Shown: one piece after another, positions 4,211 to 24,399 of the stretch
Position numbering within the stretch: position 1 is the stretch's first letter
Layout: every line of letters starts with the position of its first letter
IMG/VR virus record: IMGVR_UViG_3300027754_000163
Span: 1-45,736 of that record
Direction: 5' to 3' (one strand)
Source: a virus
DNA: 45,736 nucleotides
Translations under genes and position numbers: made by a program
Notes under the pieces: model-generated
The model's database searches: none
What the model was told of the DNA's origin: nothing
What the model saw: the letters and a program-made list of their open reading frames with translations, nothing else

Positions 4211-7200
4211 ATGGCAATCAATAAGACTATCGATTTACTTCCAGAATATTTTAGAACAATACCCAATCAGCGTTTCCTCAACAGCACGCTGGATCGCCTG
4301 GTAAGTGACCCCAACCTCAGAAACTTTGACGGTTATGTGGGCCGTAGGTTAGTCAACGGTGCGCCACTGGCTGGAAACTATATCACCGAGCCCAGCACAT
4401 TCAGAACTGACTATCAGTTGGAACCAGAATTTGTATTTGCTCAGCCAGGATCACCCACTCGCGCCGCTGGTTTCAAGGATGTGCTGAACAGTGTGGCCAG
4501 CCAGGGTGGCAAAATTGATGCATGGAACCGCCTGCTTACTGACAACTCCTACACCTATCAGGGATTCGTGGATCTGGATAAACTCACAAATTACTTCAAC
4601 TATGTGTGGATCCCAGAACCCAGAAAGATCAATGGAACTCGTGTGGATGAGAATCCCTGGTTCAGAACCCCAGTGCAAATCAGCAACAGCACTTTACCCA
4701 CCACAGCGACTTATACAGTAACCCGCACCAGCAACGGACTATCGGTTACAGATTTCGATGGATTAAATCCAGAAATATTCCTAGCGCGTGGTGGTAATTA
4801 CACATTCAAAGTTCAACCCAACGACTACTCTGCTGGTATCCGCACAGCTAAATCAGTGACTCAGCTATCCAGTGTCAGCCCAGTATTAGCCAGCAGTCAG
4901 TTTCCACTGTTTGGTAACTCCAGTGGGAAATTTGTGGCCGCTGGAGGCTTAGTGGTTACTGATGTTGTGGACTTTAACTTTAAATATTCACAGTTTGCAG
5001 TGGAATGCTGGGTCTGGATTGACAGCAATCAGAATTCAGGTGATCAGGTCATAATGGGTCAGTGGTCATTTAATGACACTGCCAACAGCAGCTGGGCATT
5101 GATCAGAACTGGCTCACCCAACACACTGAAATTCTGCTGGGTGGATGCTGCCACAGGATCAGTATCCGAGTTAGTGTACGCCGCGGGCGCAGTCAGCACT
5201 GGTGCTTGGCATCATGTTGCGGTTACCCGTGTTAGTGGCACAGCAAGATTGTATGTGGATGGCTATCAGGCAGTTACTGGCAGCATGGGCACCATTGCTA
5301 GATCTGACAAAGCATTGACCATTGGTGCTGATACTCAGAACAGCATGGCCTTCCGTGGATTCATCAATGATCTACGCATCACCAATGGCTATGCCAGATA
5401 CACTGATGTTTATTACGCATTACCCAGTGACACCACAGTCAATGATAATAACACTGTGTTGCTAATAACCTTTGACGGTGTACTGGGATCATCAGTTTTT
5501 ACTGATAATACTCAGACTAATGCCAGCCGAACATGGATTCAGTCTCATCCAGGTACTCCGGGATTTATTCCCTCTAACCCCAATCTCACAGCACGCGATA
5601 TTCTGGGTGTAAACAACAACGGTGTTTCCACTGGTGATATTGTGTTCAATGTGCCCAGACTAGCTGATGAAAGCTATTGGAGAAATCTCAGCGTAACTGG
5701 CATCCAAACCCTGGACTTTGTGGATTTAGCTACTAATTTACAATTTGATCAGATTGACGGCAAATCCATCGACACTTTTGTACAGGTTCCAGCTTCGTTA
5801 ACTGACAGTGATCTCACTGGACATCGTGGAGGTATTGATGGAGTCACTGATCTCAATGGCAAGACACTGATATTTGTCACAGGGCAGAGTGCTGGATGGC
5901 AGCGAATTGAACCATTTGAATTTAATGGATTGGAAGTGGGTACATTTGAAAATACCACACCCATACTCAATAGTCAGTGGTATGGTATCTGGACCTGTCA
6001 GGTAATCAATGGACTGATTCGTTTGAATTTCGTGGCCAACATCAGCGGTCAATATCGTGTCAAAGTCAAGAACGGCGGTACTTATCGCAACACTAGCTGG
6101 TATAAAACCGCCGATAACAGCGCATTGGCTCGTGTACCCACACTGAGTGGAAATTTAACCACTCTGTATTTGCAGGATGATCAGAACACAGCCAACATTC
6201 TGCCATTGGGCATCATCAATACTGATGTGCCTGTGCTGGATATCGATCGTGATATTGTGGGACAAAAATATTATACCAGCGGCAATGGAGTTAAGTTTAT
6301 TGACGGCCTCAGGGTAACATTTGGCTCAGACGCAGTTCCTGCCAGCTACTGCAATCTGGTGCTGGTATACCAGTCCACATTTACCAATCAGATCGGAATT
6401 GCTGACTCCACTATTGCGCTGCTGGATGTTGGGGAAATCCAGTCTGGGTTTTTCCTAGAAGCCAACACTGAAACCATGCTGGTCCACTCGGTGAATTATC
6501 AGACCAACACTGTGACAGTAACTCGCGGCTACAATAGCGTTGCCACAGCACATGGTGATAACTCCTGGTGTAAAATTCTCACAGCGCCCAGCTACATCGT
6601 GGAAGGCGTGGGCTCGGCTATCACACTGGTTCCCTATCAGCAACTCACCACTCAGGAACCATATTTAGACAACGCACAAAATCCAGATTACATCACAGTA
6701 AATCGTGCCAGTGCAGATCGTAATCCCTGGAGCAGAACCAATCGTTGGTTTAATTATGCTGTGATTGAAAACACACTGGCCTACCTACAAGCTCAGGGAG
6801 TGACAGTGTCAGCTCCCAGCTCAGTGTCTCGAGCAGTTAGGCCCATATTGGAATTCCGCAGCGGTCTTAAACTCTATGACTTTGGAACACAGTCACTGGC
6901 TCAGGTGCAGTTGCTGGACAGTCAAATTAACGACGCTCTGAGCAATATCAATGGTCGTCGTGTTACTGACACACAGAGCTTGACATTAAATGGTCATCTA
7001 TTAGTGGATGGTGACCTGGTGATATTCAATAACGACACTGAGTCTCAGGTGCGAGGAAAAGTTTATCAGATACAATATGTGGATGTGGATGGTGATTTAA
7101 ATTTATTCAGTCGTGCGCCAGTGCGTGTGGCATCCACCACCAATGTCAACATTACCAGTCCTGGCACAATTGATGGGGTCACATTACAACCATATGATCG

Positions 7201-10200
7201 TGTGTTGTTGTGGAAGCAAACCCTCGCACAACAAAATGGTATCTATTATTACATCAGTGGTAGACTGGAACGCAGTGATGATGTCAACTCAGTAACTGAA
7301 CTAAGCACTGACTTCTATGTATATGCTTCTGCAGGCACAGTTAACCGTAACACTTGGTTTAGATATGTGGTTAATTTAAACACTGTGCAACTGGGAACAA
7401 CTCCGCTGAGTTTTGAAACGGTGTTAGCCCGGGGACCAGTTATTTCACTGACAGAATATGCTACTGCACTCGCGGGCGATTGTGTGGTTGTGACCTCAGC
7501 TGATGCCAACAATCGTGGCACCAACTGGTACTGGAATGCGTCAACCAAATACTGGACACTGAGCAGTCAGCAAAAAACTCAGGTGCAACAAGCTCCTAAA
7601 TTTGATGTATTTGATTACAATGGCGTCAGCTATGCTGATTCCAGAGTTTATGATCTCAGTTCCTTTGCTGGCAGCACACTGATTGAATATCAGCGAAATT
7701 CCAGCGTTGCATCTGACCCAGTGCTGGAATTTGGATTAACTTACCGCAATATAGCCAATGTGGGTGATATCACATTCCTGAATACATATGAATCTGACAC
7801 ATTTACTCATCAGATTAATAACAACCCTGTGCAGATCGCAATTAATCAGGGCGTAGCCCGCAGAACTGATGTTATAACCGGTGCTGCCAGTGAGTTTAGC
7901 CCATGGCAACAAGCACTAACTAATTTGGAACTGTATCAGAATATATCAGCAACTGGTTCCAGAACTATTCAGGTAAGCTGCACACTGTTAAATAAGACCA
8001 CAGCCAACAACACCCTGGTGTTCGTGGATGGCCACCAGCTTAGTCCAGACAACTTCACAGTGCAGGTGGTGAATAACACAGTGTTGTTCACCATTGGCAA
8101 CGCGGTGACTGTTAACACTGACAGCACAGTACTGGTAAAATTAATCGCAGCCACACCCATTGTGGGAGCATATTATGATGTTCCTGCCGCATATGATATC
8201 AATCCCTACAATCAGCGTCCAGTGTCATTTACCCACAATGATATCAAACAACATACTGATGCCATGCATCACCAGCACGGTCACGGTATAAGCCCAGCTG
8301 ACACTGAAAATAGTCTGGACGATCCTGACCACCAGGGTAAACCTGGATTAATTATGTTGCATGAGGGGTTCAGCGTACTCAGCACACTGATGCTTACTGA
8401 TAACCGATACAATATTGATCGTGCGCTGAAGAATGCTGCTGCTGACTATGAATTATTTAAACTGAAATTCCTGCAAGCTGGAGATCAGGTAGAGAACATC
8501 GTGAATCTCAGTGCTCGACATGGTGTAGATCAGATCTTTGCAGTGTTGGCAGCTAATCACAATTCCAGTTCTGCATGGTATACCAGTGACATGGTTCCAC
8601 TGGGTGGCACGGTCGTCAGGTATACGGTGGATGACCCACAACAACAATATTATGACATTTCTCGACAACTGGATCAGGTTGCCAGTAATCAGGCAGTGCT
8701 GGTCTATCTCAACGGTCAACAACTGGTACGCGGTGAAGATTACGAAGTATTTACTGGTCGACCAGCAGTAGAGATCATGCTGGTTGTCAGAGTGGGCGAC
8801 CTGATTGAAATTGTTGAATACACTAATACCGATGGTTGTTATATGCCAGCAACTCCAGCTAAACTGGGCTTGGGCGCAGCTTATGTGCCCAGTATGTACA
8901 CTGATGATACCTATCAGGAATCAGTGCTGGTTATACAAGGCCACGATGGCAGCATTACTCGTGCATTCACTGATTATCGTGATACATTGCTGATGGAACT
9001 GGAACTGAGAATCTACAATAACATCAAAGTAAATTCTGAGTTATGGAATCAGGTAATAGAAAATCGTGTGCCCTCAGCAGGCCGCTTCAGAGAACTCAAC
9101 GGACTGGCAACATACAGCATGATCGAACAAGCATCCATTCAGCGCAAGTTCTTTTATGAATGGGTTGCTGAAAATCATGTGAATTTCCGCACATCAGTGT
9201 ATGAGCAGAACAAAGCATTCACCTACAACTACAATAACAGCACTGACAAGATCACAGGTGATCCGTTGCTGGGTTACTGGCGTGGTAGTTATCGTGACTT
9301 TTATGACACTGATCGTCCACATACTCATCCCTGGGAGGTACTGGGCTTGAGCGTCAAGCCCACTTGGTGGCTAAGCACTTATGGCCCAGCACCCTATACT
9401 GGAGAGAATCTTATCCTGTGGCAGGATCTGACCAACGGTGTGCTGGGGCACACTGGCAAAGTCAGCGCCACTGGCTACCGAACCACCAATGTGTATAATA
9501 CATCACGCACTGCTCAGCTGAGTTTGCTGGATGTGATACCAGTATCATCCAGTGGTGAGTTGTTAGATCCCAATGTGAGTTTAACAGCTATTCTGGAAAC
9601 TCAGACTCTGCGTGCTGGCTTTACTTTTAATGATGGCGGACCAGCTGAAACAGCATGGAGACACAGCAGCACGTTCCCGTTCGCTCAGTTACGCACCAAG
9701 ATCTTACAGAATCCTCAGTTTATGCTGGGTACACTGTGGGATCTGGATAATTATTGCCCGCATGTGCGTCACAACACCACACCCACTGTGGCTGGAATGT
9801 TTGATGGATTTAAATATCTGGTTACACAGATCCCCAGCATTGCTGATGTTGAGTTACACAATGTGGATACTGATGCTGCTGGCATCACAGTGCGCAAACA
9901 CAGTATGCTGAACTATATTGTGGAATATCTAACTAATCAGGGTGATACTGCCGCACTGTTCAAGAAATACATCACCCACAGTACTGTGAACTTGGTTTAC
10001 AATTTGGCTGGGTTCGCTGATAAAGGCAACCTCACAGTGTATGCTGAGCAGAACAGTCCACAGACTATTCAGCAGACTGTCAAAGTACCTGCAGAAGACT
10101 ATAGTTTATTACTGAGTCAGAGTACTCCAGTGGGACAAGTGACCTACAGTGGAGTTATCATCACACAAAGCGTTAATGGTTACAAAGTAACTGGCTATGA

Positions 10201-13200
10201 CCAGGAATATCCATTTTTTATTATCAGTCCCAGCAATCCCACTGGTAAAACCACCAGCATTACGGTGGGCAGCCAGAGTTTTACGGTGTATCAGGAAAAT
10301 GCTGAACAACCCATTTATGTTCCATACGGATTTGAATTTAGTAATCGTCAGACTGTGGTGGACTTCCTGGTCAGTTACGGCGCATATCTGCAACGTTTGG
10401 GTTTCTTGTTTGAAACTGATACCGCCACTGACCGAGTTAACTGGACAGATGCAGCAGTACAGTTTGTAAAATGGAGCTATTATGACTGGGCACCCAATCA
10501 GGGCGTGAATCGCATCAGCCTGGTACTCAACCCCAGCAGCGGTGTTCTAAAATTCCAACCAGTGGCTGGCACTCTGGACAGTTTGCTTAATCCTGGGTCA
10601 CTGTTGCTGGATGAAAATCAGTATCAGATTGATACCAGATACCTGGATGTGCTGCGTGATTCTGATGTTACCTACATCAACCATCAGTTGCCATTGGGTG
10701 TGATCAGTGCGCTGAGAGCCAACTTAATAAACTTTGAACACAAACTGATACTGAATAATCGCACAGTATTCAATGACCTGATCTATAACCCAGCATTGGG
10801 TACCAGGCAAAACCGCTTGAGAATCACTGGACTGAAATCTGGAGATTGGAATGGCACGTTGGCCAGTGCTGGTTTCATGATGATGCTGAGTGATGTGGCT
10901 GACTGGCAACCCAATACTGACTACCTGCGTGGCAGCATTGTACGGTATAAGAATCAGAACTGGACTGCGCTCACTGCGGTGATTGGCGCTAGTAAATTCC
11001 AGCAGAATAACTTCAGTGTCACTGACACTGTGTTTCAGGATCAGCTGATGCCCAGTATTGGCGCTAAAGCACTGGATCTGGAACATGCGTATGATCCATA
11101 TTACCACAACAGCATACCCGACATGGTGCGTCTGAGATGTGACGCACTGGGATATGTGGAACGTACTTGGCTGGCCAACCTGGGGCTGGACTTGCTGAAT
11201 CAGACTGAATTCTATCGTGGCTGGATCAAGCAAAAAGGCACGCCACAGGCAATAACTAATTTTACATCAGCTGGCACCACTGACCTATTGGCTGACTTTG
11301 CTGTGTTTGAAGAATATGCCATCAAGATGGGTGAGTACGGCGCAACTGGACGCACTGGATATGTGGACGTACAACTCAATAGCACCGTGGCGGTCAATAA
11401 CCCCGTGGCAGTGGAGTTTGCGGTTGGCAGCAGTGATACCAATATTATCAGAGTTTCAGACAGTGTGTTGTACAAGAAACCACTGGGCTGGAATGCTAAC
11501 TTCATACAGACACTGGATGCTGGTAATCTCAATGATTCAGAATCACCATTCCTGTCAGCTGGCCCAGTATTGCCCAGTGACATCTACGACTTTGCCCGCA
11601 GCAATACACTGCAATACAACAGTACATTGCAGAACTTGCTGACATTTCCCAGCAAACTCAGCATGACCACAGAAACCGACACTGGTAACCTGTTGCGCAA
11701 TGTTAGAAATCAAAATTGGTTCTGGATTGCAGTGGATGAAGTCAGCTCAGCTGAAAACAAATACAATGTGATTACTTGGAAACTGTCTGCTGCGTATATC
11801 AAACAAGTGGTGCTGAACACAGTGCAGAATACCATAGATTTATACCTAAGTTCTGGCGTGGACGCATATGTGGGCGATATTGTGGCTGTGGATATCACCC
11901 AAGCACAGGGTGTGTTCACTGTGAATGATTATCAGGTACAACCCAGTGGTGATTATTACAGTGTTCTGAGTTTGCAGGTAACTGACGTCACCCAGTATAC
12001 ATTTGACAATATCACCTACACTGATGTCACTGCCCCACAGGGCATTTACACGTACACAAGTTTACGGCACAATGATATTGGCAGTGCCATACTGGATTCA
12101 CAAGTTAATAGACTCCGGCTGCCAGTACTGACTCGGGCTTATGTGGACTATGACACCACAGGATTTGCTGTGTTTGATTTCCGCGAACCCTATGTCACTG
12201 GTCAGGCAACTTTACCAGCGGGCTCAGCGGTAACCACTAGTATTGCACAGGATGAAGCTACCAAACTGCTGTGGTTAGGTCAGGCCACAGCCAACCAAGT
12301 GACACTGAAAACCATGGAATCAGCCCGACTCAGTGCTGGTGATGTCGCTGGGTTGGGCACGGTGGTACACACTTTCGCCGCCACTGGCAATACTACCTCA
12401 CTGGGCTCACAGGTTGTGAATCTTACCTCGGGCCTGGCAGTTGCCACGGCGACCGACAGCAGCAACAGCGGTCAGTTATATATTCTAAAATATACACCCA
12501 CGGTTGCTGCTGTCAGTCAGACAGTTTATGGCGCCAGCGGTTCATATCTGGGATCCAGTGTAAGCGCCAGTGCTGATGGTGTGTGGTTGGCTGCTGGTGC
12601 TCCTACACCCAGTGGTGTAGGTAGTGTGCGGGTTTACCAACGAGATAGCTCTGACCTGTACAATTTGGTACACACCGTCACTGATCCTGGTAATGTTACT
12701 GGTGGTAAATTTGGATCCAGTGTAAGCCTCAGCGCCGACGGTGCATTGTTGGCTGTGGGAGCTCCATCCGCTGGAGCTGGCGCTGGTAAAGTTTATACTT
12801 TCAGCAGAGCAACAACCACATTTACTCTGACTCACACTTTATCAGCCGGGGACAATGATGATCAATATGGAGCCAGTGTTGCGGTCAATGGTGACCTACT
12901 AGCCATTGCTGCGCCACAATCTTCTCAGGTCATTGGCAGTCAGACATTAAGACAGCTGGGTAAAGTGCAATTATGGAATTATTACTCCAGTGCTTGGCAT
13001 CTGATTCAGACCATTGATAACACAGATGTTTTCAGTACTGGCTTTGGTCAACAGCTCAGCTGGCTTACCACCAAGGTATTGGCTGTGGTGGAAAATAATG
13101 CTGAATTCGTACAAGCCGATCAGTTGCATCTGGAAAGCAACATTCAGTTTGACAGCGGCGGCACAGTGATGTATGACAGCGCGGCACAACCTGGACAGAG

Positions 13201-16200
13201 ATTATCACAGTATCAATTATTACGCACATCAGCATCAGTGTTGTCTGCCCAGCATGACACTATACAACTGACCCGTGTTAAAACAGTACAATACCAATCA
13301 GCAACCGGAGTTAATTTGTGCTTTGCTGGCAACCTACAACGCTTGTGGGTGGGTAATAGATTAGCAACGACTGATGAAAACAATGTAGTGTGTTACACCA
13401 ATGACAATGCATTGTCTGGCTGGACTATGCTGAGACAGCAACAGCCCACATTGGATGCTCACAGTTTGTTCAGAGCATGGATTTATAATAGTCGTACTCA
13501 GCAGAAAATAGTGGATCTGGATGTGGTGGATCTGGCTCAGGGGTTATTGCCCGGAGTGATAGCTCAGCATATTGATTATATTTCTGGCAATGACCCAGCA
13601 GTATATGGTGTTGCATTGTGGCGTGGCGGCATTACTTATGAAGTTGGCAGCCGGGTAGTTTACAACGACACTGTATATGTAGCTAATCAGATTCACAGTG
13701 CGGGATTCTTCAACACTGAACACTGGACAGTGTTATCCACCCAGTCTCAGGTAGCCAACACTGGCAGTATTAAATGGGGATCAGCGCAGGTGGGTCTGAA
13801 TTGGTTCAGCACTCGCCAGCTGAGAACAGTAAACTATTATCAGGGCGAGTTGATGGATCGAGTGGCCAACTACAACACATGGTTTCCTGGCACACAGATC
13901 AATATATATGAATGGACTGTCAGCACAGTACCGCCCGCGGCATACACTGGCACTGGTACCGTGGCTGCCGACGCGGCCACAGTTTACGACAGTCAGACCA
14001 GCCAGTGGTATTTCTGGGTAGCTAACAAAACTCAGCCCAGCGAAGTTCACACACTGAGCACTGCTGATATCAGCAATGCGCTGACTTATCCCCAACTCAG
14101 TGGTTTGCCTATGATTTCACCAGCCAATACTCACGGCGTGATATTGTATAATGTGGCCAATGAAGTTAACAATGGCGAGAATGTTCTACATATTGATTAT
14201 GTGTTGGAAGATCATACCAACCGTTTACACAGCGAGTTCCTGATGCTGAGTGAAGACGGATCTGGTCACTGGTTAACCACTCCTATTTACACCAAAATGG
14301 TGGACAGTTTGTGTGGACAATCCAACATCACCTTTGGTGGCGTTACCACTCAGCTGGAAGTTCCAGACCCTGCGCTGAATACTGAAGATCGGTATGGAGT
14401 TGCATTTAGACCACGCCAGAGTCTGTTCAGAGATCGTAACAAAGCCATCCAGATCTATTTCCAACAGATCAACACAGCCATTGCAAGTCAGGCAGTAGCT
14501 AACTTATCCACACTGAGCTTGTTGCAACAGCGTGACCCAATGCCCACTACAGGATTTGATGCTACTGTGGTTGATCGTGAGACATTGCTGATACTGGATG
14601 TTCGTGATTATGTTAACAACACCGTAATTCTGATTCACAGTGATAGTTTAGCTACCAATTCAGGTTGGAGCCTGGTTAAATTAGTCAACGGCCAATGGGA
14701 GATGGTAACCAGTGAGTTCTACAATCTCAGTGAGTACTGGCAGTATCAGGACTGGAGCTCAGCTGACTACACTGAAACAGTTGCTGACAACACCATTGCT
14801 CACATTGGATACTTACCCAGCATTAACTTGGTAACAGGACAGTATTTAAAAATTCTCAATAATGGCGACAACAACGCAGCAATGTATCAGATTCAAGCAG
14901 ACCAGACTCTGAATCCAGTGTGGATACAGCGTGGAACCATACAGTTTAAAACCAAGCTGTATGACACAGTGGTCACTGGCTTAGATGGCACGGCGTTTGA
15001 TACTGTGGCTGGATTTGACAGTTATCCAGCATTGCCCCTGAGACTGATTCTAACTGCACTGAATCAGCATATTCTCACTGGTGACCTAATGACAGTGGCC
15101 GACAGCGCCTTCTTTGCAGTAATGAGATTTGTACTACAGGAAAATCTCAGTGTGGATTGGTTATTCAGAACCAGTTTTATCAATGTCAAACACCGTGTGA
15201 AGAATCTAAATCGTCAGACTAACTATCGGCAGGATGACGAACAGTTTGTGCGTGACTTTGTAAATGAAACCAATCCTTATCACACTCGAATACGTGAATA
15301 CACCAATGTGTACAGCGCAACCGACACCGCACTGACTGCCGCCAGCGACTTTGACTTGCCAGCATTGTATGACGCAGTGTGGTATGCTGGTCAGTATCCT
15401 GGTGCATACGGCAAGCTAAACAGTGGACAAGCTAGATATTTCACAGCTGGCGTTGCACTGGCTCAAGAAAACGGATTACTATATGTGGGCAGCAATGGCA
15501 TGGCAGCTCACGCTATGGGCTTATGGCCCAACACCACCGTGACATCAGCAACACCGCAACACTGGGTATTTGCGCTGAATCAGACACCAACTGAAACAGT
15601 TACTAAATATCCAGTGCCCACCAACAACATCATTGGTGTAGCAATCAATGGTGTACCGTTCTTCAGTGTGGTGGCCGAGGAAATCGACACGCTGACCTGG
15701 GTGAATGATCCCAGTGTCACTGAAACTTATACTGTGAATATTGCGGCTGGCACCAGCTATGTTGGGCCAGACGCCAGCAATGGGTATTTGACTTCCACGG
15801 GCGCATATGTGTACCGCGCAAATCCTACGCTGCTGTATACGCTGAATTCCAGCCAGCATAGTCCATTGATCGGATTTGCGCTGGATGGATTCCCCATTTA
15901 TGGACCGTACGGGTACAGGAGAGTTGATGGTTCTGGTGGAATCATTCAGAACACCAGCAGTTATCGACTCAGGAATGATTACAGACTCAGCACTCGGACT
16001 GTTGTCAACGGGCAAGCCTACGCCGACTATGCAGCGCCCACTGGCGAGTACATTGGCGATTGGGAATATGTGGCAGGGCTGGGTACACTGGATGAGCATA
16101 ATGGTAGATTTGTAAAAACTCCAGAATATCCCTATGGTACCTACGCATACTTTGTCACTGTGTCCACTTATGATCATACTATCCCAGTGTATCCCTACAT

Positions 16201-19200
16201 TGTGGGTTCCACATTCCAGGGTGTGCCCACTGGATTGAAATACAACTATGTGGGTGAGTCATCAGTTGCAATATATGAAAATGGCAACTATCAGATGCCC
16301 GCTGAACCAGCGCCAGTTAGCTCAGACTGGAGCTTAAGATCACCCACTGGCTTGTTCCCCAACGACGAGATTAGATTTACTCAGGGAGTTTATGCCAACT
16401 GGAATAACCATCACACGTATAATCTCACTGGCTTAACCGTGGCTGACACTGGTCATGGTTACAGTTACACACCCAGTGTTAATATAACTGGTGGAGGCGG
16501 GGCAGGAGCCACGGCCCGAGTCACAGTGAATCCACTGACCCAGCAGCTGAATCCCACAGTGACACTGACCTCAGTGGGCACTGGGTACACTAGTCAGCCA
16601 CTAGTGGAAGTAATTGGTGGATTTGATGTACTAACCTGGGAAAACACTGTGGTTTACAAACCAGGCGATGTGGTACTGTATGCGGCCAATCAGGCATTCT
16701 ATGAAGCAAACCAGCTGGAGACATCAGCTAATGTGGCTGGAGTGAAACACACTGTTCAAACTAAAGGATTATTTGTTACCCTGGCGTCAGCCACTACTAG
16801 TAATGATGTCAACATCACAGTGGAGTCAGCCACTGATATTCTCCTAGGCATGGTGGTGGCTGGAACTGGCATTACTGGTACTCCCACCGTGAGTTCCGTT
16901 AATACTGCGGCAAAAACTGTGACATTATCCAGTACACAGTCGGTTACTGCTGGACAAACCTTGACATTCACCCTGACCTCAGCTAGTGTAACATTGGGCT
17001 CAGTGTCGGGTATAGTTACTGGTATGATTGTGACTGGCACGAACATTGTTGCAAATTCTTATCCCACTGTGATTACTGTGGATACGGCCAACTCCAAAGT
17101 AACATTGAGCTCAGTGCAGACTTTGGCCAGATATGATCAACTGAGCTTTGTGTCAGCAACTTATGATTCCACCAATACCACACTACCAGTGGGTAGTAAT
17201 ACTGGTACAGTTATAGCCAATATGCGAGTCGTGGGTCAAAATATAAGTGTAGATGCTGTTAGTAATATTGCCACTTATGGTAATGTCAACATCACAGTGG
17301 GGTCGGTAACTGGTATTGCGACAGGTATGACGGTTTCCAGTAATAACATCACTGATTTCCCCACAGTGAGTGCCATTGATACTGTGACTAAAATTCTGAC
17401 ATTATCCAAACCAGAGTCAGTTACTGCTGGAGAAACCCTGACATTCACGCTGGTCACCACGGTCAGTTCCACGGCTAACACCATCACCGTTTCTGGAGAT
17501 CATCGTGATGTGGTTGCTAATACACAGCTGACCCTGTCCTATTTGTATGGTAATCCTGTCTCTGATACAACAGCCTGGACTCAGCTGAGCTTAGACAATA
17601 TTCTTATACCCCGCTCAGCTGTGTTGACACCTGTGTTGACCAACTCAGTGGTGAGAAAACCCAATATCACCATGCAGTATAATCGTTGGGCATCGGTGGA
17701 TTACCCCAGCGTACTGGTAGATTCTGTACCATTCACAGACACTTATGCTGTGGTGGACGCTGCCATGACCGATCAAGATGATACCCAGCTGGATAATGTG
17801 GTATTACAGTTGGCATTCAATACTGATACTGTAACTGAGAATATTTGGAACTATCAACACTGTGTGGCTGGCGCTAGATCAGCCAGCTTCAGCAATATAG
17901 ATGGCAATCGATATCTCACCACAGCCACCACAATCTCTGGTCTGGGCATTAATGATTTTACCATTGAATTCTGGTTCCGTATGCAGACGGTGCATAGCAA
18001 ACAAGTGTTATTCAGTACTAGCGGAATAATTATCTATGTTAATGAGTTAAATCAGGTGTGTGTTAGTGATTCCAACAGCAGCAGCAGTTTAGTATCCGGG
18101 GGCAGTGTTACCACTAATATCTGGCAACACGCTGTGGTTGAGCGCAAATACAACACTGTGAGCTTATACCTAGATGGTTATCGCCTGGGCCAATACACCG
18201 CAGAGGGTTATCAGAATCATAACTTCAGCGGCGCCAACCCCACACTGGGCACTGAAGTGACACCTGCACACACTGCCAATGCGTTCATGGATGAACTCAG
18301 AATCACGTCGGGTGTGCTGAGATATGATGCTGCTAACTATGCTGTACCACAGGGAGCATTTGGTCGTACGGTGATAACTGACAGTTACCTAAATCATGTG
18401 ACATTACTGTATGGATTTGAAACCCTCAGTGCTGATTTACCCACTGGCATCAACTTTGTGCCCCAGGGTGTGAGCACGGTGGTTCAGGATCGCAGCGTGA
18501 ACAGTAAGCTGGTAACAGTGGTCAATCCAGCACAGCTCACGGTGAACAACACAATCATCAGTGCAGCTCACAGTGAGGTCTTAGCTGCCACTTTCGCCGC
18601 AGGTGCATACTTAGATGTTGGCAGCAGTACAGACTTCAATCTAGGCACTGGTGATTTTACTATTGAGTTCTGGATGGATCCTGCCTCAACTGGAACCATA
18701 TTCACACTGGCTGCTGGCACCACTCACAGTTTAACAGCAAGTATGTCAGATACCACTCATATACAACTGCTGGTGAAAACAGCAGAAGCCAGCACAGTGA
18801 TGACTTTAACTGGCATCATCAGCACTGGTGCTCACTTTATTAGTGTTGAACGGTATCAGCAACGCATGATGTTGTATGTGGATGGTATTTTGGTGGATCA
18901 AGATGATCAGGCTGATTATAGTTTCGGCACCAGCACCAACACAGTACCGTTGATGATCAGTGCGGTGTCAGCAGGGTTCACTGGCAAGCTGGGTGACTTC
19001 AGAGTAACTGCAGGACTTGCGCGGCATTCTCCAGTAGGCAACTTTGATACCCTGATACACAGTGACTTCACTGACACCGCACTGGGTATAAGATCTGCAG
19101 ACGTAGTCATTGATGGTAGTGGTTTTGTTACCAACATCAACTGTCCAGCTGATGATGAACATGTTAATGGCCGACTGTATGACACACTGGATGTTCGTGT

Positions 19201-19945
19201 GTTCAGTAATGGTAATTTAACCACAGCAAACACTGGCTTCAGAATGTTCAAGGACATGCTAGATAATATCAGCTTTTATGCGGTGCCAGCCACTGGTACA
19301 ACCACATTGACTCAGGCTCTTAACTGGTATGACACTGAGATACATCTGGCAGGTGTCAGTGGATTCCGTACTCCGATTGATAATCGCTGGGGCGCAGTAT
19401 TTGTCAACGGTGAACGCATTGCTTACCTCGGTGTGGATCCTGTGAATAACTTACTCACAGGCATAGTCAGAGGCACACTGGGCACACATACCCCAGTGGT
19501 TCATGCCAGTGGCAGCCGTGCTGAAGCTGCTGGTGATAACTTGGTATTACCTGGCATTTCAGGTGTAGTTGGCGTGGCGCACACCGTAACAGCCAATGTC
19601 AGCAGCAATGCTACCATACAGATTGATTCGATTGCTGGTATCACACCAGGTATGAAGGTAACTGGTAATAGTGCTGTAGCGTCAACGGTGGTTAGCACAT
19701 CAACAAATCAGGTGATACTGGCTACACCACAAACACTGACTCGGGGCACGGTGTTAAGCTTTGGGGATATTGTGGCGCACAGTGTGAGACCATTCACCAC
19801 AGTGAACACCAACAGTTTAACAGCTTATCACAACACCTGGAACACACTGGGATCAGCAGTGGCAACTGATGGACAGGGATTACAGCTGAGTTCCACTGAC
19901 ATCGCAGTGTTTCTTATCAATAACCCAGCTCAGTTGCCGGTATAA
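4211..19945 (+). CDS. giant 5244-residue virion protein with LamG, FG-GAP and YHYH domains
   Basis: A single uninterrupted frame of 15.7 kb occupies a third of the window. The N-terminus (MAINKTIDLLPEYFRTIPNQRFLNSTLDRLV) has the look of a baseplate or tail attachment region. Domains seen by pattern: a LamG/concanavalin-like fold at about residues 250-400 (VECWVWID...WHHVAVTR...LYVDGYQ); chitin-binding-like aromatic modules near 2230 and 3136; FG-GAP/integrin-type repeats at about 2770-2905 (GSSVSASADGVWLAAGAP and copies); a YHYH domain at about 3810-3995 (DGFPIYGPYGYRR, LDEHNGR, YGTYAYFVT); four roughly 60-residue GMxVxGxxI repeats at about 4185-4450 and near 5140; two more LamG domains at about 4575-4715 and 4800-4940. 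The mixture of sugar-binding and propeller modules suggests surface attachment. It starts 3 nt after gp6 without a strong ribosome site, so coupling is likely. Confidence 0.8.
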   Translation: MAINKTIDLLPEYFRTIPNQRFLNSTLDRLVSDPNLRNFDGYVGRRLVNGAPLAGNYITEPSTFRTDYQLEPEFVFAQPGSPTRAAGFKDVLNSVASQGGKIDAWNRLLTDNSYTYQGFVDLDKLTNYFNYVWIPEPRKINGTRVDENPWFRTPVQISNSTLPTTATYTVTRTSNGLSVTDFDGLNPEIFLARGGNYTFKVQPNDYSAGIRTAKSVTQLSSVSPVLASSQFPLFGNSSGKFVAAGGLVVTDVVDFNFKYSQFAVECWVWIDSNQNSGDQVIMGQWSFNDTANSSWALIRTGSPNTLKFCWVDAATGSVSELVYAAGAVSTGAWHHVAVTRVSGTARLYVDGYQAVTGSMGTIARSDKALTIGADTQNSMAFRGFINDLRITNGYARYTDVYYALPSDTTVNDNNTVLLITFDGVLGSSVFTDNTQTNASRTWIQSHPGTPGFIPSNPNLTARDILGVNNNGVSTGDIVFNVPRLADESYWRNLSVTGIQTLDFVDLATNLQFDQIDGKSIDTFVQVPASLTDSDLTGHRGGIDGVTDLNGKTLIFVTGQSAGWQRIEPFEFNGLEVGTFENTTPILNSQWYGIWTCQVINGLIRLNFVANISGQYRVKVKNGGTYRNTSWYKTADNSALARVPTLSGNLTTLYLQDDQNTANILPLGIINTDVPVLDIDRDIVGQKYYTSGNGVKFIDGLRVTFGSDAVPASYCNLVLVYQSTFTNQIGIADSTIALLDVGEIQSGFFLEANTETMLVHSVNYQTNTVTVTRGYNSVATAHGDNSWCKILTAPSYIVEGVGSAITLVPYQQLTTQEPYLDNAQNPDYITVNRASADRNPWSRTNRWFNYAVIENTLAYLQAQGVTVSAPSSVSRAVRPILEFRSGLKLYDFGTQSLAQVQLLDSQINDALSNINGRRVTDTQSLTLNGHLLVDGDLVIFNNDTESQVRGKVYQIQYVDVDGDLNLFSRAPVRVASTTNVNITSPGTIDGVTLQPYDRVLLWKQTLAQQNGIYYYISGRLERSDDVNSVTELSTDFYVYASAGTVNRNTWFRYVVNLNTVQLGTTPLSFETVLARGPVISLTEYATALAGDCVVVTSADANNRGTNWYWNASTKYWTLSSQQKTQVQQAPKFDVFDYNGVSYADSRVYDLSSFAGSTLIEYQRNSSVASDPVLEFGLTYRNIANVGDITFLNTYESDTFTHQINNNPVQIAINQGVARRTDVITGAASEFSPWQQALTNLELYQNISATGSRTIQVSCTLLNKTTANNTLVFVDGHQLSPDNFTVQVVNNTVLFTIGNAVTVNTDSTVLVKLIAATPIVGAYYDVPAAYDINPYNQRPVSFTHNDIKQHTDAMHHQHGHGISPADTENSLDDPDHQGKPGLIMLHEGFSVLSTLMLTDNRYNIDRALKNAAADYELFKLKFLQAGDQVENIVNLSARHGVDQIFAVLAANHNSSSAWYTSDMVPLGGTVVRYTVDDPQQQYYDISRQLDQVASNQAVLVYLNGQQLVRGEDYEVFTGRPAVEIMLVVRVGDLIEIVEYTNTDGCYMPATPAKLGLGAAYVPSMYTDDTYQESVLVIQGHDGSITRAFTDYRDTLLMELELRIYNNIKVNSELWNQVIENRVPSAGRFRELNGLATYSMIEQASIQRKFFYEWVAENHVNFRTSVYEQNKAFTYNYNNSTDKITGDPLLGYWRGSYRDFYDTDRPHTHPWEVLGLSVKPTWWLSTYGPAPYTGENLILWQDLTNGVLGHTGKVSATGYRTTNVYNTSRTAQLSLLDVIPVSSSGELLDPNVSLTAILETQTLRAGFTFNDGGPAETAWRHSSTFPFAQLRTKILQNPQFMLGTLWDLDNYCPHVRHNTTPTVAGMFDGFKYLVTQIPSIADVELHNVDTDAAGITVRKHSMLNYIVEYLTNQGDTAALFKKYITHSTVNLVYNLAGFADKGNLTVYAEQNSPQTIQQTVKVPAEDYSLLLSQSTPVGQVTYSGVIITQSVNGYKVTGYDQEYPFFIISPSNPTGKTTSITVGSQSFTVYQENAEQPIYVPYGFEFSNRQTVVDFLVSYGAYLQRLGFLFETDTATDRVNWTDAAVQFVKWSYYDWAPNQGVNRISLVLNPSSGVLKFQPVAGTLDSLLNPGSLLLDENQYQIDTRYLDVLRDSDVTYINHQLPLGVISALRANLINFEHKLILNNRTVFNDLIYNPALGTRQNRLRITGLKSGDWNGTLASAGFMMMLSDVADWQPNTDYLRGSIVRYKNQNWTALTAVIGASKFQQNNFSVTDTVFQDQLMPSIGAKALDLEHAYDPYYHNSIPDMVRLRCDALGYVERTWLANLGLDLLNQTEFYRGWIKQKGTPQAITNFTSAGTTDLLADFAVFEEYAIKMGEYGATGRTGYVDVQLNSTVAVNNPVAVEFAVGSSDTNIIRVSDSVLYKKPLGWNANFIQTLDAGNLNDSESPFLSAGPVLPSDIYDFARSNTLQYNSTLQNLLTFPSKLSMTTETDTGNLLRNVRNQNWFWIAVDEVSSAENKYNVITWKLSAAYIKQVVLNTVQNTIDLYLSSGVDAYVGDIVAVDITQAQGVFTVNDYQVQPSGDYYSVLSLQVTDVTQYTFDNITYTDVTAPQGIYTYTSLRHNDIGSAILDSQVNRLRLPVLTRAYVDYDTTGFAVFDFREPYVTGQATLPAGSAVTTSIAQDEATKLLWLGQATANQVTLKTMESARLSAGDVAGLGTVVHTFAATGNTTSLGSQVVNLTSGLAVATATDSSNSGQLYILKYTPTVAAVSQTVYGASGSYLGSSVSASADGVWLAAGAPTPSGVGSVRVYQRDSSDLYNLVHTVTDPGNVTGGKFGSSVSLSADGALLAVGAPSAGAGAGKVYTFSRATTTFTLTHTLSAGDNDDQYGASVAVNGDLLAIAAPQSSQVIGSQTLRQLGKVQLWNYYSSAWHLIQTIDNTDVFSTGFGQQLSWLTTKVLAVVENNAEFVQADQLHLESNIQFDSGGTVMYDSAAQPGQRLSQYQLLRTSASVLSAQHDTIQLTRVKTVQYQSATGVNLCFAGNLQRLWVGNRLATTDENNVVCYTNDNALSGWTMLRQQQPTLDAHSLFRAWIYNSRTQQKIVDLDVVDLAQGLLPGVIAQHIDYISGNDPAVYGVALWRGGITYEVGSRVVYNDTVYVANQIHSAGFFNTEHWTVLSTQSQVANTGSIKWGSAQVGLNWFSTRQLRTVNYYQGELMDRVANYNTWFPGTQINIYEWTVSTVPPAAYTGTGTVAADAATVYDSQTSQWYFWVANKTQPSEVHTLSTADISNALTYPQLSGLPMISPANTHGVILYNVANEVNNGENVLHIDYVLEDHTNRLHSEFLMLSEDGSGHWLTTPIYTKMVDSLCGQSNITFGGVTTQLEVPDPALNTEDRYGVAFRPRQSLFRDRNKAIQIYFQQINTAIASQAVANLSTLSLLQQRDPMPTTGFDATVVDRETLLILDVRDYVNNTVILIHSDSLATNSGWSLVKLVNGQWEMVTSEFYNLSEYWQYQDWSSADYTETVADNTIAHIGYLPSINLVTGQYLKILNNGDNNAAMYQIQADQTLNPVWIQRGTIQFKTKLYDTVVTGLDGTAFDTVAGFDSYPALPLRLILTALNQHILTGDLMTVADSAFFAVMRFVLQENLSVDWLFRTSFINVKHRVKNLNRQTNYRQDDEQFVRDFVNETNPYHTRIREYTNVYSATDTALTAASDFDLPALYDAVWYAGQYPGAYGKLNSGQARYFTAGVALAQENGLLYVGSNGMAAHAMGLWPNTTVTSATPQHWVFALNQTPTETVTKYPVPTNNIIGVAINGVPFFSVVAEEIDTLTWVNDPSVTETYTVNIAAGTSYVGPDASNGYLTSTGAYVYRANPTLLYTLNSSQHSPLIGFALDGFPIYGPYGYRRVDGSGGIIQNTSSYRLRNDYRLSTRTVVNGQAYADYAAPTGEYIGDWEYVAGLGTLDEHNGRFVKTPEYPYGTYAYFVTVSTYDHTIPVYPYIVGSTFQGVPTGLKYNYVGESSVAIYENGNYQMPAEPAPVSSDWSLRSPTGLFPNDEIRFTQGVYANWNNHHTYNLTGLTVADTGHGYSYTPSVNITGGGGAGATARVTVNPLTQQLNPTVTLTSVGTGYTSQPLVEVIGGFDVLTWENTVVYKPGDVVLYAANQAFYEANQLETSANVAGVKHTVQTKGLFVTLASATTSNDVNITVESATDILLGMVVAGTGITGTPTVSSVNTAAKTVTLSSTQSVTAGQTLTFTLTSASVTLGSVSGIVTGMIVTGTNIVANSYPTVITVDTANSKVTLSSVQTLARYDQLSFVSATYDSTNTTLPVGSNTGTVIANMRVVGQNISVDAVSNIATYGNVNITVGSVTGIATGMTVSSNNITDFPTVSAIDTVTKILTLSKPESVTAGETLTFTLVTTVSSTANTITVSGDHRDVVANTQLTLSYLYGNPVSDTTAWTQLSLDNILIPRSAVLTPVLTNSVVRKPNITMQYNRWASVDYPSVLVDSVPFTDTYAVVDAAMTDQDDTQLDNVVLQLAFNTDTVTENIWNYQHCVAGARSASFSNIDGNRYLTTATTISGLGINDFTIEFWFRMQTVHSKQVLFSTSGIIIYVNELNQVCVSDSNSSSSLVSGGSVTTNIWQHAVVERKYNTVSLYLDGYRLGQYTAEGYQNHNFSGANPTLGTEVTPAHTANAFMDELRITSGVLRYDAANYAVPQGAFGRTVITDSYLNHVTLLYGFETLSADLPTGINFVPQGVSTVVQDRSVNSKLVTVVNPAQLTVNNTIISAAHSEVLAATFAAGAYLDVGSSTDFNLGTGDFTIEFWMDPASTGTIFTLAAGTTHSLTASMSDTTHIQLLVKTAEASTVMTLTGIISTGAHFISVERYQQRMMLYVDGILVDQDDQADYSFGTSTNTVPLMISAVSAGFTGKLGDFRVTAGLARHSPVGNFDTLIHSDFTDTALGIRSADVVIDGSGFVTNINCPADDEHVNGRLYDTLDVRVFSNGNLTTANTGFRMFKDMLDNISFYAVPATGTTTLTQALNWYDTEIHLAGVSGFRTPIDNRWGAVFVNGERIAYLGVDPVNNLLTGIVRGTLGTHTPVVHASGSRAEAAGDNLVLPGISGVVGVAHTVTANVSSNATIQIDSIAGITPGMKVTGNSAVASTVVSTSTNQVILATPQTLTRGTVLSFGDIVAHSVRPFTTVNTNSLTAYHNTWNTLGSAVATDGQGLQLSSTDIAVFLINNPAQLPV

Positions 19946-22058: not shown

Positions 22059-22075
22059 TTTACATAATTTAGATG

Positions 22076-22106
22076 ACAATGGCGACCTTTGTGGGGTCGC
22101 CATTGT
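22076..22106. terminator. 12-bp hairpin between convergent fibre gene and tmRNA
   Basis: ACAATGGCGACC (22076-22087) pairs perfectly with GGTCGCCATTGT (22095-22106) around a 7-nt loop. It lies between the end of the plus-strand fibre gene and the 3' end of the minus-strand tmRNA and could end transcripts from both sides. There is no strong U-run on either strand. Confidence 0.65.
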
Positions 22107-22427
22107 TATGATCCATTCTGTTTCCAAGAGGATCAATCTCAGTCGTATAAACTGAACTAGGCTGTTGCCAGTTCAGCGACTTCGGACGTGAATCCGAAAT
22201 CTGCGACATCATACCACTTATTAGAGTTGGCTGATTTTTGTTTGCTCTGATTTACGTGAGTGCTTCACGGCTGACTCCCGTCACCTATTGAGTCCTGTCG
22301 AAACCGGTCGCCCCCAAGTACTACATAGTGGAGGCGGGGAGAATCGAACTCCCGTCCACGACACTTTCAGTTGTTATCAACATCAGCGGTACTACGATAT
22401 TACTTATGCCAGTGATATCACTGGCAC
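22107..22427 (-). ncRNA. ssrA: circularly permuted (two-piece type) tmRNA
   Basis: Read on the minus strand, the 3' tRNA half comes first: a GTAGTACCG motif, then GGAC, a T-arm with stem GGGAG/CTCCC and loop TTCGATT (22353-22337), acceptor strand CGCCTCC (22336-22330) and discriminator A (22329). Only 13 nt later the 5' half begins with GGGGGCG (22315-22309), which pairs with the acceptor strand over 7 bp with one G-U, then ACCGGTTTCGACAGG, the standard tmRNA 5' motif. GGTGACG downstream can pair with CGTAGTACC upstream with a bulge, as in helix P2 of conventional tmRNAs. The tag frame follows. CCA is not encoded (CTA is present). A perfect 20-nt palindrome (22407-22426) forms a hairpin at the probable 5' end of the acceptor piece. 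No separate promoter is seen, so it probably comes from the RNA ligase operon. Exact ends are estimates. Confidence 0.88.
22157..22231 (-). other. tmRNA tag reading frame, 24 residues, ANSNKWYDVA...ELATA
   Basis: The resume codon is most likely GCC at 22231, preceded by AAAAATCA (compare the A-rich stretch and TAGTC before the E. coli resume codon). The frame reads ANSNKWYDVADFGFTS followed by EVAELATA and stops at TAG (22159-22157). The Ala-Asn start and the hydrophobic ELATA end match the general tag plan in which the C-terminus is a protease degron (ALAA in E. coli). Two hairpins lie in the frame: TTCGGA/TCCGAA and CTGAACT/AGTTCAG spanning the stop. The tag is long compared with the 11-residue E. 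coli tag. Confidence 0.8.
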
Positions 22428-22870
22428 CAGAATTCTTTTTGGGCAACAAACGCCTGATAATCCTGCCACACCTGGTCCATGTTGCTCCAGGACATACAAT
22501 TATACTGTCTGATAAAGCATTTAACTTGTCGTATCAGGGATAATTGGGGCCAGCCAGAATACTCTGACCACCCCAACGTACCCTGGCGATGACGCTGAGC
22601 TAACTGATCCCATAGTTCTGAAGTATACAAGGGCTTGGTTGGATCACATCGCAGTACGACATTCTGCTGAATCACAGTGGCGGCCATATACCGTAGATCG
22701 GTATGATTGAACAACTCTATGGTGTGATCACAATCGAGACACAGGCTGCCCTGCCTACCTTCTCCGCGCGATGCATTGCAAATATCACACTTATTTTTCG
22801 CTCGATTAACTTTGCACCCACTACTGAACTCATCGTCCCACTCCCACTCTACTAGTTGAGGTCTAGCCAT
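22418..22870 (-). CDS. Cys-rich protein of unknown function, 150 aa
   Basis: An N-terminal four-Cys cluster, CDIC (about residues 28-31) and CLDC (about 43-46) around a basic SRGEGRQG loop, has the spacing of a small zinc ribbon. The rest is Trp/Gln-rich and helical, without a motif I recognise. The start overlaps the stop of the next upstream gene by 8 nt, and the stop lies within the palindrome that begins the tmRNA acceptor piece, so the gene and the RNA share sequence. It is part of the RNA ligase operon. A nucleic-acid-binding role is only an inference from the zinc-ribbon-like Cys pairs. Confidence 0.7.
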   Translation of the reverse strand: MARPQLVEWEWDDEFSSGCKVNRAKNKCDICNASRGEGRQGSLCLDCDHTIELFNHTDLRYMAATVIQQNVVLRCDPTKPLYTSELWDQLAQRHRQGTLGWSEYSGWPQLSLIRQVKCFIRQYNCMSWSNMDQVWQDYQAFVAQKEFWCQ

Positions 22871-23231
22871 TGTGGTCCTTCATGGCAGGACTGACAAAGG
22901 TATAGGTTATCTGAGTCTGGATGTCAAACTGGGTATTGCATTCAGTACATTCCACCGGGTGAGTTCCAGAGTCCCACAGTAGATAATAATCTGTGTGCTG
23001 CCACACATTAAATTCATGACCACAGTTGGGACAGCGCACACACTGGTCGTTGGTCATTTGCTCACGGCTGCTCAGCGTGCGGCAGTTGTAACACACTGTG
23101 GGACTGCCATTGGGGTGCGAAATAAACCCATTACAGCTATTACATGCTTCGCCAGCATCACGTAGAGCCTGGTGATATTTGCCCACATTGACACGTTGGT
23201 TTTCATCTACAAAATCAGTAATTGACGTCAT
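22863..23231 (-). CDS. double zinc-ribbon-like protein, 122 aa
   Basis: Residues 30-33 (CNSC) and 47-50 (CYNC) form one four-Cys set; CVRCPNC near 64-70 and CTEC near 95-98 form another. The layout is two consecutive treble-clef or zinc-ribbon modules. The gene lies between RNA ligase (overlap 17 nt) and the other Cys-rich gene (overlap 8 nt), so the three are translationally coupled. The family is not recognised. Zinc binding is strongly suggested by the paired CxxC motifs; an RNA-related role is inferred from the operon. Confidence 0.75.
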   Translation of the reverse strand: MTSITDFVDENQRVNVGKYHQALRDAGEACNSCNGFISHPNGSPTVCYNCRTLSSREQMTNDQCVRCPNCGHEFNVWQHTDYYLLWDSGTHPVECTECNTQFDIQTQITYTFVSPAMKDHNG

Positions 23232-24336
23232 TTGATACCTCCATGAGGGATAATATTTCTACAGTACGAGCTGGTGCCTGCACACACAGCCACTTAAAAC
23301 CATTGGCCTGCTTGGCATCCAGCAGGGCAAACATAGCACCCAGCACTGGCGTAGGCACTTGAGCCTGAGCTGCCAAAGCAAAGTTCTTACGGCTGGTGTT
23401 ACTAACTGCCACCTGAATAAACCACTGATCAATCTCTTGGCCCAGTGAGTGCATCTGTGCTAAAATCTGATCATACCGTACTCGGAGGTCAGGAAAGTAG
23501 GCAAACACTTCTGAATCCTCACCACGCTGCACCAGCTCAACTAGCCCACGAGTGTGCAAACTGTCCTTGAGGTGATGAATTAGTACATAACGCGGACTCT
23601 TGATCTTGATGCGACGCCAGTGCTGGTCCACCACCACATAGCCTTCTTGATGTGCAGGGTCCAGCGCATCAGCCGCGGCCAGTACATCAGCAACTGAAGT
23701 CAACGCAAACTCACGTACCACATCCCAGCAGTGAGCCCACAGAGCAACTGGATGCTCAGCGCCATCCTGATCACGAACACCAATCAGCGTCAGATTGCCA
23801 GTGTTGTCTGATTGCTGAGTCACAATACGGTTATACTGACTGGTGAGCTCAAAGCAATAGGTCCAGCCTGGGAACAGATCGCTGACGTCAGAATACTGAT
23901 CCTGCCAAGTACGCCAGAACAGCTCAGCAAAGGTAAAGCTGTGCTCACCCACATTTCCGCCAGCATCTGGCGACCCTTTGGTCGCCACTTGCCATGCACC
24001 AGCATACCAGTACACAATCATCAAACTGCCGTCCAGCTTCTCCTGCACTTTGGCAGTGGACCAGTCAATGTCAGCAGCACCAGTCTCGCCCTGGTTAAAG
24101 AATCGAGTAAACGGTTGTGCTACCACGCGCCAGTTCTGATCCTGATCCAGTATCAGTCCTCGACTCTCTACCACCACAGGGTGAGACTTGTGTTCAGATG
24201 CGGCGATCTGGTCGTATGTGAACTGTAGCAGGTTGGGCCACTGTGGGTGAGCCTTGGGCTCCACACCCAGTGTCTTGAGCTGAGCTAATGCATCAGTTTG
24301 AGTACGCAACAAAGTCTGGATGTTCAGTACCGGCAT
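23215..24336 (-). CDS. rnlA: T4 Rnl1-type RNA ligase
   Basis: The chosen ATG at 24336 gives 373 residues, against 374 for T4 RNA ligase 1; it lies 6 nt after a perfect TATAAT box. The nucleotidyltransferase motifs are in order: ESRGLI near 57-62, motif I KLDGS with the adenylated Lys at 100 (Lys 99 in T4), KGS at 120-122, FELTSQYNRIV near 162-172, and motif V KIKSPRYV. Such enzymes join 3'-OH and 5'-phosphate RNA ends and in T4 repair tRNA cut by the host anticodon nuclease PrrC, after Pnkp heals the ends. Pnkp is present at 35643-36560. The operon continues into two Cys-rich genes and the tmRNA. Confidence 0.93.
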   Translation of the reverse strand: MPVLNIQTLLRTQTDALAQLKTLGVEPKAHPQWPNLLQFTYDQIAASEHKSHPVVVESRGLILDQDQNWRVVAQPFTRFFNQGETGAADIDWSTAKVQEKLDGSLMIVYWYAGAWQVATKGSPDAGGNVGEHSFTFAELFWRTWQDQYSDVSDLFPGWTYCFELTSQYNRIVTQQSDNTGNLTLIGVRDQDGAEHPVALWAHCWDVVREFALTSVADVLAAADALDPAHQEGYVVVDQHWRRIKIKSPRYVLIHHLKDSLHTRGLVELVQRGEDSEVFAYFPDLRVRYDQILAQMHSLGQEIDQWFIQVAVSNTSRKNFALAAQAQVPTPVLGAMFALLDAKQANGFKWLCVQAPARTVEILSLMEVSNDVNY

Positions 24337-24342
24337 ACTACT

Positions 24343-24372
24343 ATTATAGCACAGACCAAATAGCAATGTCAA
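24343..24372 (-). promoter_or_regulatory. early sigma-70 promoter for rnlA operon, leaderless type
   Basis: TTGACA (24372-24367), 18-bp spacer, TGC then TATAAT (24348-24343), then 6 nt to the ATG at 24336. Transcription would begin at or next to the A of the start codon. Confidence 0.85.
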
Positions 24373-24399
24373 CAAAAGATATTCAGCTGGTATACGCAG

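Follow-up and report, generated by a model that had tools for sequence, protein, structure and literature searches.

A phage-borne circularly permuted tmRNA with an expanded, non-canonical tag

The minus strand of the window, a 45.7-kb fragment (45,736 nt) of a phage genome analyzed here over its whole length, carries between approximately 22404 and 22107 a circularly permuted (two-piece) tmRNA whose acceptor half stands ahead of its coding half. Judged by its sequence, the gene probably encodes a functional ribosome-rescue tmRNA that relies on the SmpB of its host and appends a tag specific to the phage. Two-piece tmRNAs are already known in phages; what is new is the expanded, non-canonical tag of 24 codons, which sets the gene apart from ordinary tmRNAs and is absent from the earlier note on this DNA. 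If the proposal developed below is true, conserved tags of two to three times the usual length, maintained by selection in phages that frequently encode ClpX and ClpP, would imply that trans-translation leaves on proteins a message rewritten by phages, and a virus may alter what befalls unfinished proteins.

Identification of the gene

A search of the entire window with cmscan against Rfam 15 gave a sole match above threshold, RF04321 (tmRNA_permuted) at 22387-22196, covering the full model (1-213) with 88.6 bits and an E-value of 7.9e-16 against a cut-off of 47 bits. The earlier note had proposed a phage-encoded permuted tmRNA on the minus strand, with the 3' half before the 5' half, and the covariance model that it named as a check bears this out. 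The older betaproteobacterial model RF01850 (beta_tmRNA) also aligned over its full length, at 22444-22177, and scored 63.5 bits with a cut-off of 84. ARAGORN, the second check that had been suggested, did not call the tmRNA in the window. This silence is no argument against the gene, because 19 of 81 loci with the permuted motif are likewise uncalled, and as the program also gave an implausible tag for phage JWDelta we no longer used it as an arbiter; phage tmRNA surveys based on this program are incomplete. Note that the Achromobacter phages Axy11 (L002 1972-2261) and JWDelta (L003 1970-2354) carry unannotated permuted tmRNAs, with the tags ANDDYIRVAA and ANDDYIRLAA and long intervening segments of 116 and 210 nt, respectively, including the CCA position.

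Anatomy of the two pieces

All features of the gene lie on the minus strand. The 3' acceptor piece (22326..22404), delimited by the covariance match and by folding, has a predicted 5' end and finishes with the discriminator A73 at 22329 and CTA at 22328-22326. Within it we read the GTAGTACCG motif at 22387..22395, the T-arm GGGAG-TTCGATT-CTCCC at 22337..22353, which is also part of the covariance match, and the 3' strand of the acceptor stem, CGCCTCC, at 22330..22336. The 5' coding piece (22107..22315, its 3' end approximate) contributes the other strand, GGGGGCG, at 22309..22315, and the D-loop motif GGTTTCGAC at 22297..22305. All 7 of 7 acceptor pairs form, with U70 at 22332 opposite G3 and A22329 as the discriminator; the G3.U70 pair is the alanine signal in tmRNA charging. 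The earlier description of the acceptor pairing, the T-arm and both motifs as intact is confirmed by this reading, as is the statement that CCA is not encoded, its position being occupied by CTA.

The 13 nt between the tRNA halves (A22329 to G22315) had likewise been counted correctly. They consist of the 3 nt of the CCA position and a 10-nt intervening segment, TGTAGTACTT, at 22316..22325, which would be removed in the mature RNA. The claim that this segment is unusually short had to be given up. In 31 permuted genes from alphaproteobacteria the distance from A73 to G1 spans 4-51 (median 32), and in 11 genes from Burkholderiales 8-45; among the IMG/VR phage loci, chosen by patterns that permit a distance of 3-64, the 74 that were measured span 7-62 (median 22). 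The 13-nt segment of the window is short yet ordinary, and its length was dropped as a novelty as distances of 4-15 are also seen in bacterial genes. In one gene from Burkholderiales (L104) and one from a Rickettsiales MAG (L089) the segment is nearly nil, with 8 and 4 nt including CCA, and the former permuted tmRNA has the odd tag ANGDQYLNVA.

In the coding piece, a 5-bp hairpin, CGTGA-AGCAC-TCACG, at 22255..22269 (covariance match, folding) lies ahead of the tag frame. The frame of 24 codons, 22160..22231, encodes ANSNKWYDVADFGFTSEVAELATA; it begins with the resume codon GCC at 22231, has an A at position -4, and by translation is closed by a TAG stop codon at 22157..22159. The A at -4 is shared by the window, by 52 of 52 long-tag phage tmRNAs and by 23 of 26 others. 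Folding places a 10-bp hairpin within the frame (22178..22201) and a further one on the final tag codons and the stop codon (22152..22176). A TGATCC/GGATCA stem at 22109..22135, its loop containing TTGGAAACAGAA, resembles what is found at the same end of the coding pieces of other two-piece tmRNAs. A strong hairpin of terminator-like form at 22073..22109, unlisted under the T-run rule of our scan and likely the end of transcription, separates the tmRNA operon from a convergent tail gene that ends at 22058. All core parts are intact: acceptor stem, A73, T-arm, resume-codon context, tag frame and terminator.

The energy of pairing between the two pieces was no better than for shuffled pieces, 41 of 200 shuffles being equally good. 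Proof of pairing by energy was therefore dropped, and the claim that the halves pair stands on comparative data. With a search pattern that leaves acceptor pairs 5-7 free, every IMG/VR locus retrieved nonetheless has 7 of 7 pairs, and loci from this same pattern show changes on both strands of pairs 5 and 6 with G3.U70 retained.

Operon and phage clade

The tmRNA forms the end of a minus-strand operon that further comprises genes for an RNA ligase, a small zinc-ribbon-like protein and a 150-aa protein. A sigma-70 promoter at 24343..24372 on the minus strand (TTGACA-18-TATAAT with TG before the -10 element, 12 of 12 consensus matches) lies some 2 kb upstream of the tmRNA and likely drives its transcript. 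The first gene of this transcript encodes a T4-type RNA ligase 1 (23215..24375, minus strand; PF09511, phrog_562); the mechanical ORF start falls within the promoter, and translation probably begins at the ATG at 24336. The genes for the small zinc-ribbon-like protein (22863..23231; weak PF09723) and for the 150-aa protein (22418..22870; no assigned function) are on the same strand. The latter ends directly before the tmRNA, and its product is 96-100% identical in two IMG/VR relatives. Its stop codon is spanned by a perfect 20-nt palindrome, TGCCAGTGATATCACTGGCA, at 22407..22426 (minus strand), a possible hairpin ahead of the acceptor piece. Genes around the tmRNA encode baseplate proteins, the RNA ligase, thymidylate synthase, DHFR and QueE/QueD, and the scan of window proteins turned up no integrase. 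A single ORF of 5,244 codons fills 4211-19945 on the plus strand, between baseplate and tail genes.

The window encodes an ATPase (phrog_1297) that matches hundreds of IMG/VR loci. In 79 other kept contigs, up to 374 kb long, the ATPase is 63-76% identical over nearly its full length. This similarity to the proteins of 200-370 kb contigs assigns the window, itself a fragment, to a jumbo-phage clade. The nearest named phage, PA5oct, has 49% ATPase identity and no tmRNA. Among 48 clade records, 46 taken by their ATPase and two by their RNA ligase, a permuted tmRNA over threshold is found in 30, including 10 of 12 contigs above 200 kb; these proportions are rough, given that the set includes several near-duplicate records and many fragments. 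A one-piece tmRNA exceeded the cut-off in none of 42 clade records. The majority of clade members have canonical tags of 10-13 aa that end in ALAA.

The region also occurs on two more IMG/VR contigs of the same phage, one identical (L005) and one with 477 of 481 positions shared (L006), and RF04321 exceeds its threshold in both. L006 has TAA in place of TAG as the tag stop, and a helix A-U pair becomes G-U; both changes would preserve function. Between other phages the two halves of the gene differ in how much is shared: 91% of the coding half against 58% of the acceptor half for L269 and L273, and 99% of the tag against 33% of the upstream region for L276 and L277. The halves seem to be swapped between phages, recombining as modules. 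L280 and L281 resemble L269 and L273 in that the same tag-coding half is found on a very different acceptor half.

The 24-residue tag and its relatives

With 24 residues, the window tag ANSNKWYDVADFGFTSEVAELATA is more than twice the usual length, 10 being common for tmRNA tags (PMC11915505). It ends in ELATA, so that -LATA replaces the canonical ALAA and the C-terminal Leu/Ala-Ala-Ala end expected of a ClpXP degron is absent. ClpX contacts the Ala-Ala end of a tag and relies on its last two alanines, of which the penultimate one matters (PMC7652416). A plain ClpXP degron is less sure because -LATA breaks this contacted end.

Two other phages, L269 and L273, are linked to the window through the neighbouring RNA ligase (44% identity) and carry the tags ANNTWYDLGEYSFEGNLEAGLAVA and ANSNEWYDLGEYSFEGNLEAGLAVA, respectively, both in permuted tmRNAs. 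The window tag is about 48% identical to the tags of these two phages; with that of L273 it has 12 of 25 identities and 17 of 25 positives (BLASTP E 3e-07 for the pair). Synonymous changes are found at N2, S3, N4 and L21, and over the ungapped 24 codons of this one comparison pN is 0.30 and pS 0.62. The window tag displays the pattern of what we call the WYD group, an ANSNxWYD(V/L) start followed by a hydrophobic/aromatic pattern, and WYD and this pattern are conserved in the extended part across the window, L269 and L273. The window-type tag rests on three sequence types. Our IMG/VR scan for it returned only two near-identical contigs, and L269 and L273 probably fail the confirmation step of that scan. 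No tag homologues were found in Pfam, and a scan of 300 Burkholderiales for the tag peptide, run without positive control, gave none.

A second family of long tags is present in the same clade. Tags like AKASTGEVTVSGKNVKFSARTVKAESFAV are found in 6 of the 30 clade permuted tmRNAs, and an IMG/VR scan revealed relatives on 83 contigs. The 80 that were kept all have a permuted-tmRNA acceptor upstream; note that the 7/7 acceptor test takes the best pairing and is not independent, and that independent support comes from six loci with Rfam matches over cut-off. These tags (L276-L355, L265, L268, L270, L271, L274 and L275, all IMG/VR) are 28-30 aa long, with the core GEVTVSGK(N/G)(V/I)KFSAR and an (F/L)AV ending. 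The core is missing from the window tag, and the two tag sequences are unrelated. For 43 distinct 29-codon DNAs, core codons 6-20 have pN 0.062 and pS 0.234, a ratio of 0.27, while the ends are relaxed, and selection therefore acts on the peptide core of this family and not solely on its final residues. Neither this tag nor that of the window occurs in 50,697 INPHARED phage records, and the GEVTVSGK tag is not found in 72,556 plasmids (PLSDB). AlphaFold models of the tags are of low confidence and at most hint at a beta hairpin in the GEVTVSGK core; weak PDB matches of this tag to cell-wall-binding and toxin repeats were judged to be chance, with single-repeat scores of 2-6 bits.

Very long tags of permuted tmRNAs, DNSSLMSYAKALHVRELSEKETLVEAEAIAA and ANKKALGFADVTFMLPGKTELRLAA, were also seen in L009, a 295-kb contig, and in L071 and L081, with lengths of 25 aa for L071/L081 and 31 aa for L009 (ARAGORN). 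In a cyanophage-like group (L007-L079) the tags seem to resume at GGC or GAC (GTYNTPLALAA, DNNYMSFATSYALAA), and the CCA position reads CTT, CTC or TTC.

Protein partners

SmpB was found in 0 of 21 clade records and was detected in 10 control bacteria. The Clp protease family PF00574 exceeded its cut-off in 12 of 21 records. Two of these proteins were examined and both matched NF001368, an NCBIfam Clp protease subfamily, over cut-off, and a comparison of one of the two with solved structures aligned it with ClpPs along almost the entire protein; among the weaker PF00574 hits there may be head-maturation proteases. A ClpX above cut-off is encoded in 11 of 22 records and retains the zinc domain and the GYVG pore loop. 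Long tags are not strictly linked to ClpX or ClpP, because neither protein is present in the 45.7-kb window fragment and both are missing from several long-tag contigs above 190 kb, and changes in the recognition loops of ClpX showed no clear link with long tags either. Several phages (G500, G502, G510, G519, G525, G528, G532, G551 and others, L358-L376) have ClpX and ClpP and no SmpB. Most of the clade phages that encode ClpX/ClpP also have a tmRNA, and some have two ClpP-family proteins.

Proposed mechanism and alternative readings

We picture a two-piece tmRNA of the betaproteobacterial type, borne by a jumbo phage and presumably co-transcribed with the RNA ligase operon. Host tRNA enzymes would cut the transcript, with RNase P generating the 5' terminus at 22315; past A22329 the 3' end would be trimmed and CCA added. 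The acceptor stem and nearby pairing would hold the two pieces together, host alanyl-tRNA synthetase would charge the molecule via G3.U70, and host SmpB would bring it into stalled ribosomes. Translation would then resume at the GCC at 22231, append the tag and stop at TAG, such that the ribosome is freed, and the 24-residue -LATA tag would serve as a phage-specific signal to a Clp-type or other protease with altered affinity. Of the roles put forward in the earlier note, namely rescue of ribosomes on phage terms, tagging of host proteins for degradation and replacement of a host tmRNA attacked during infection, the first appears to fit best. For the clade as a whole we tentatively suggest a tagging system of its own, in which expanded conserved tags of two families might steer rescued polypeptides to a phage-chosen fate (phage ClpXP, another protease or protection) and only SmpB is borrowed from the host.

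Known ssrA tags mostly serve as short marks for degradation. The gene might be an ordinary phage tmRNA that tops up host trans-translation, its extra tag length being neutral drift and its products being degraded by host ClpXP. The canonical ALAA-ending tags of most clade members speak for this reading, as do the AN start that the window tag keeps, its still small and hydrophobic end, and the tolerance of tags of 20-33 aa in other phages. Neutral filler, however, is not expected to persist, whereas the extension is conserved in the window, L269 and L273, and the low pN/pS of the GEVTVSGK core points in the same direction, so that we consider such an ordinary role rather doubtful.

Along a different line, the tag might not be for degradation at all and could stabilize or route rescued phage proteins, or be recognized by a specialized factor of phage or host origin. 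We regard this as somewhat unlikely: phage ClpX and ClpP occur widely in the clade, and the retained GYVG pore loop suits Clp degradation, while the tag models are of low confidence and the partner is still a hypothetical one. Its attraction lies in the fact that a single jumbo-phage clade has two long-tag families, unrelated to each other and each with a conserved inner core, in C-termini (LATA, LAVA or (F/L)AV) that differ from the last two alanines needed for ClpX binding (PMC7652416), and in the precedent of a protease switch with an altered tag (PMC8138137).

Retention of the long tag for the sake of RNA structure, the peptide itself being immaterial, would account for the hairpins at 22201-22178 (10-bp) and 22176-22152 (stop codon) and for the two in-frame hairpins at similar places in L269 and L273. 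In these phages, however, the stem sequences differ from those of the window in spite of an alike peptide pattern, L006 retains its stop codon and loses a stem pair, and the GEVTVSGK core is constrained at the protein level, all of which makes a purely structural role improbable. A decoy for host SmpB or alanyl-tRNA synthetase, for which the tRNA-like-domain-only tmRNA of mycobacteriophage DS6A is a model, as such a molecule inhibits tmRNA (PMC4131195), or else a dead remnant or an integration-site fragment, is highly improbable for a gene with both halves, resume context and a 24-codon frame with its stop intact and conserved in relatives, on a fragment with no integrase among the proteins scanned.

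Comparison with known systems

The reading that we prefer, a ribosome-rescue tmRNA with a phage-specific tag, places the gene next to the two-piece tmRNAs described by RF04321 and RF01850. It has in common with them the gene order, acceptor and T-arm, GGTTTCGAC, G3.U70, a tag between the structures of the halves and a short intervening segment. It differs in being phage-borne, in its 24-aa -LATA tag compared to about 10 aa with ALAA, in the CTA at the CCA position and in a score under the RF01850 cut-off. Among phages, 53 two-piece tmRNAs were predicted by ARAGORN in 18,146 genomes, Melnitz serving as the detailed example (PMC9004378). Melnitz, the marine phages of that study, Axy11 and JWDelta likewise have a permuted phage gene and presumably use host SmpB. 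Melnitz is, however, a marine methylophage with a glutamine riboswitch (PMC9004378), whereas the window derives from a putative jumbo phage, has the expanded tag and gave no riboswitch match at the Rfam gathering threshold.

Huge phages with tmRNA and SmpB have been published (Al-Shayeb 2020, PMC7162821). The tmRNAs of that study were called with ARAGORN, which misses the window gene; Clp is unmentioned in its main text, and SmpB is reported there in contrast to 0 of 21 records here. A 484-kb uncultured phage (LR756508) contains a 112-nt tmRNA-like RNA (L004 1919-2030; RF00023, 58 bits) that is too short to accommodate a tag frame and in this resembles the DS6A form. The DS6A-type inhibitor consists of the tRNA-like domain only and lacks a tag frame, whereas the window gene has its 24-codon frame. 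The GEVTVSGK tmRNAs (L276-L355) are the same kind of gene and partly from the same clade, with tags of 28-30 aa unrelated in sequence to that of the window. The tmRNA of Mesoplasma florum is a one-piece bacterial gene in an organism without ClpXP, in contrast to the two-piece phage gene described here. Its tag differs in length and sequence and is degraded by Lon, a protease switch (PMC8138137).
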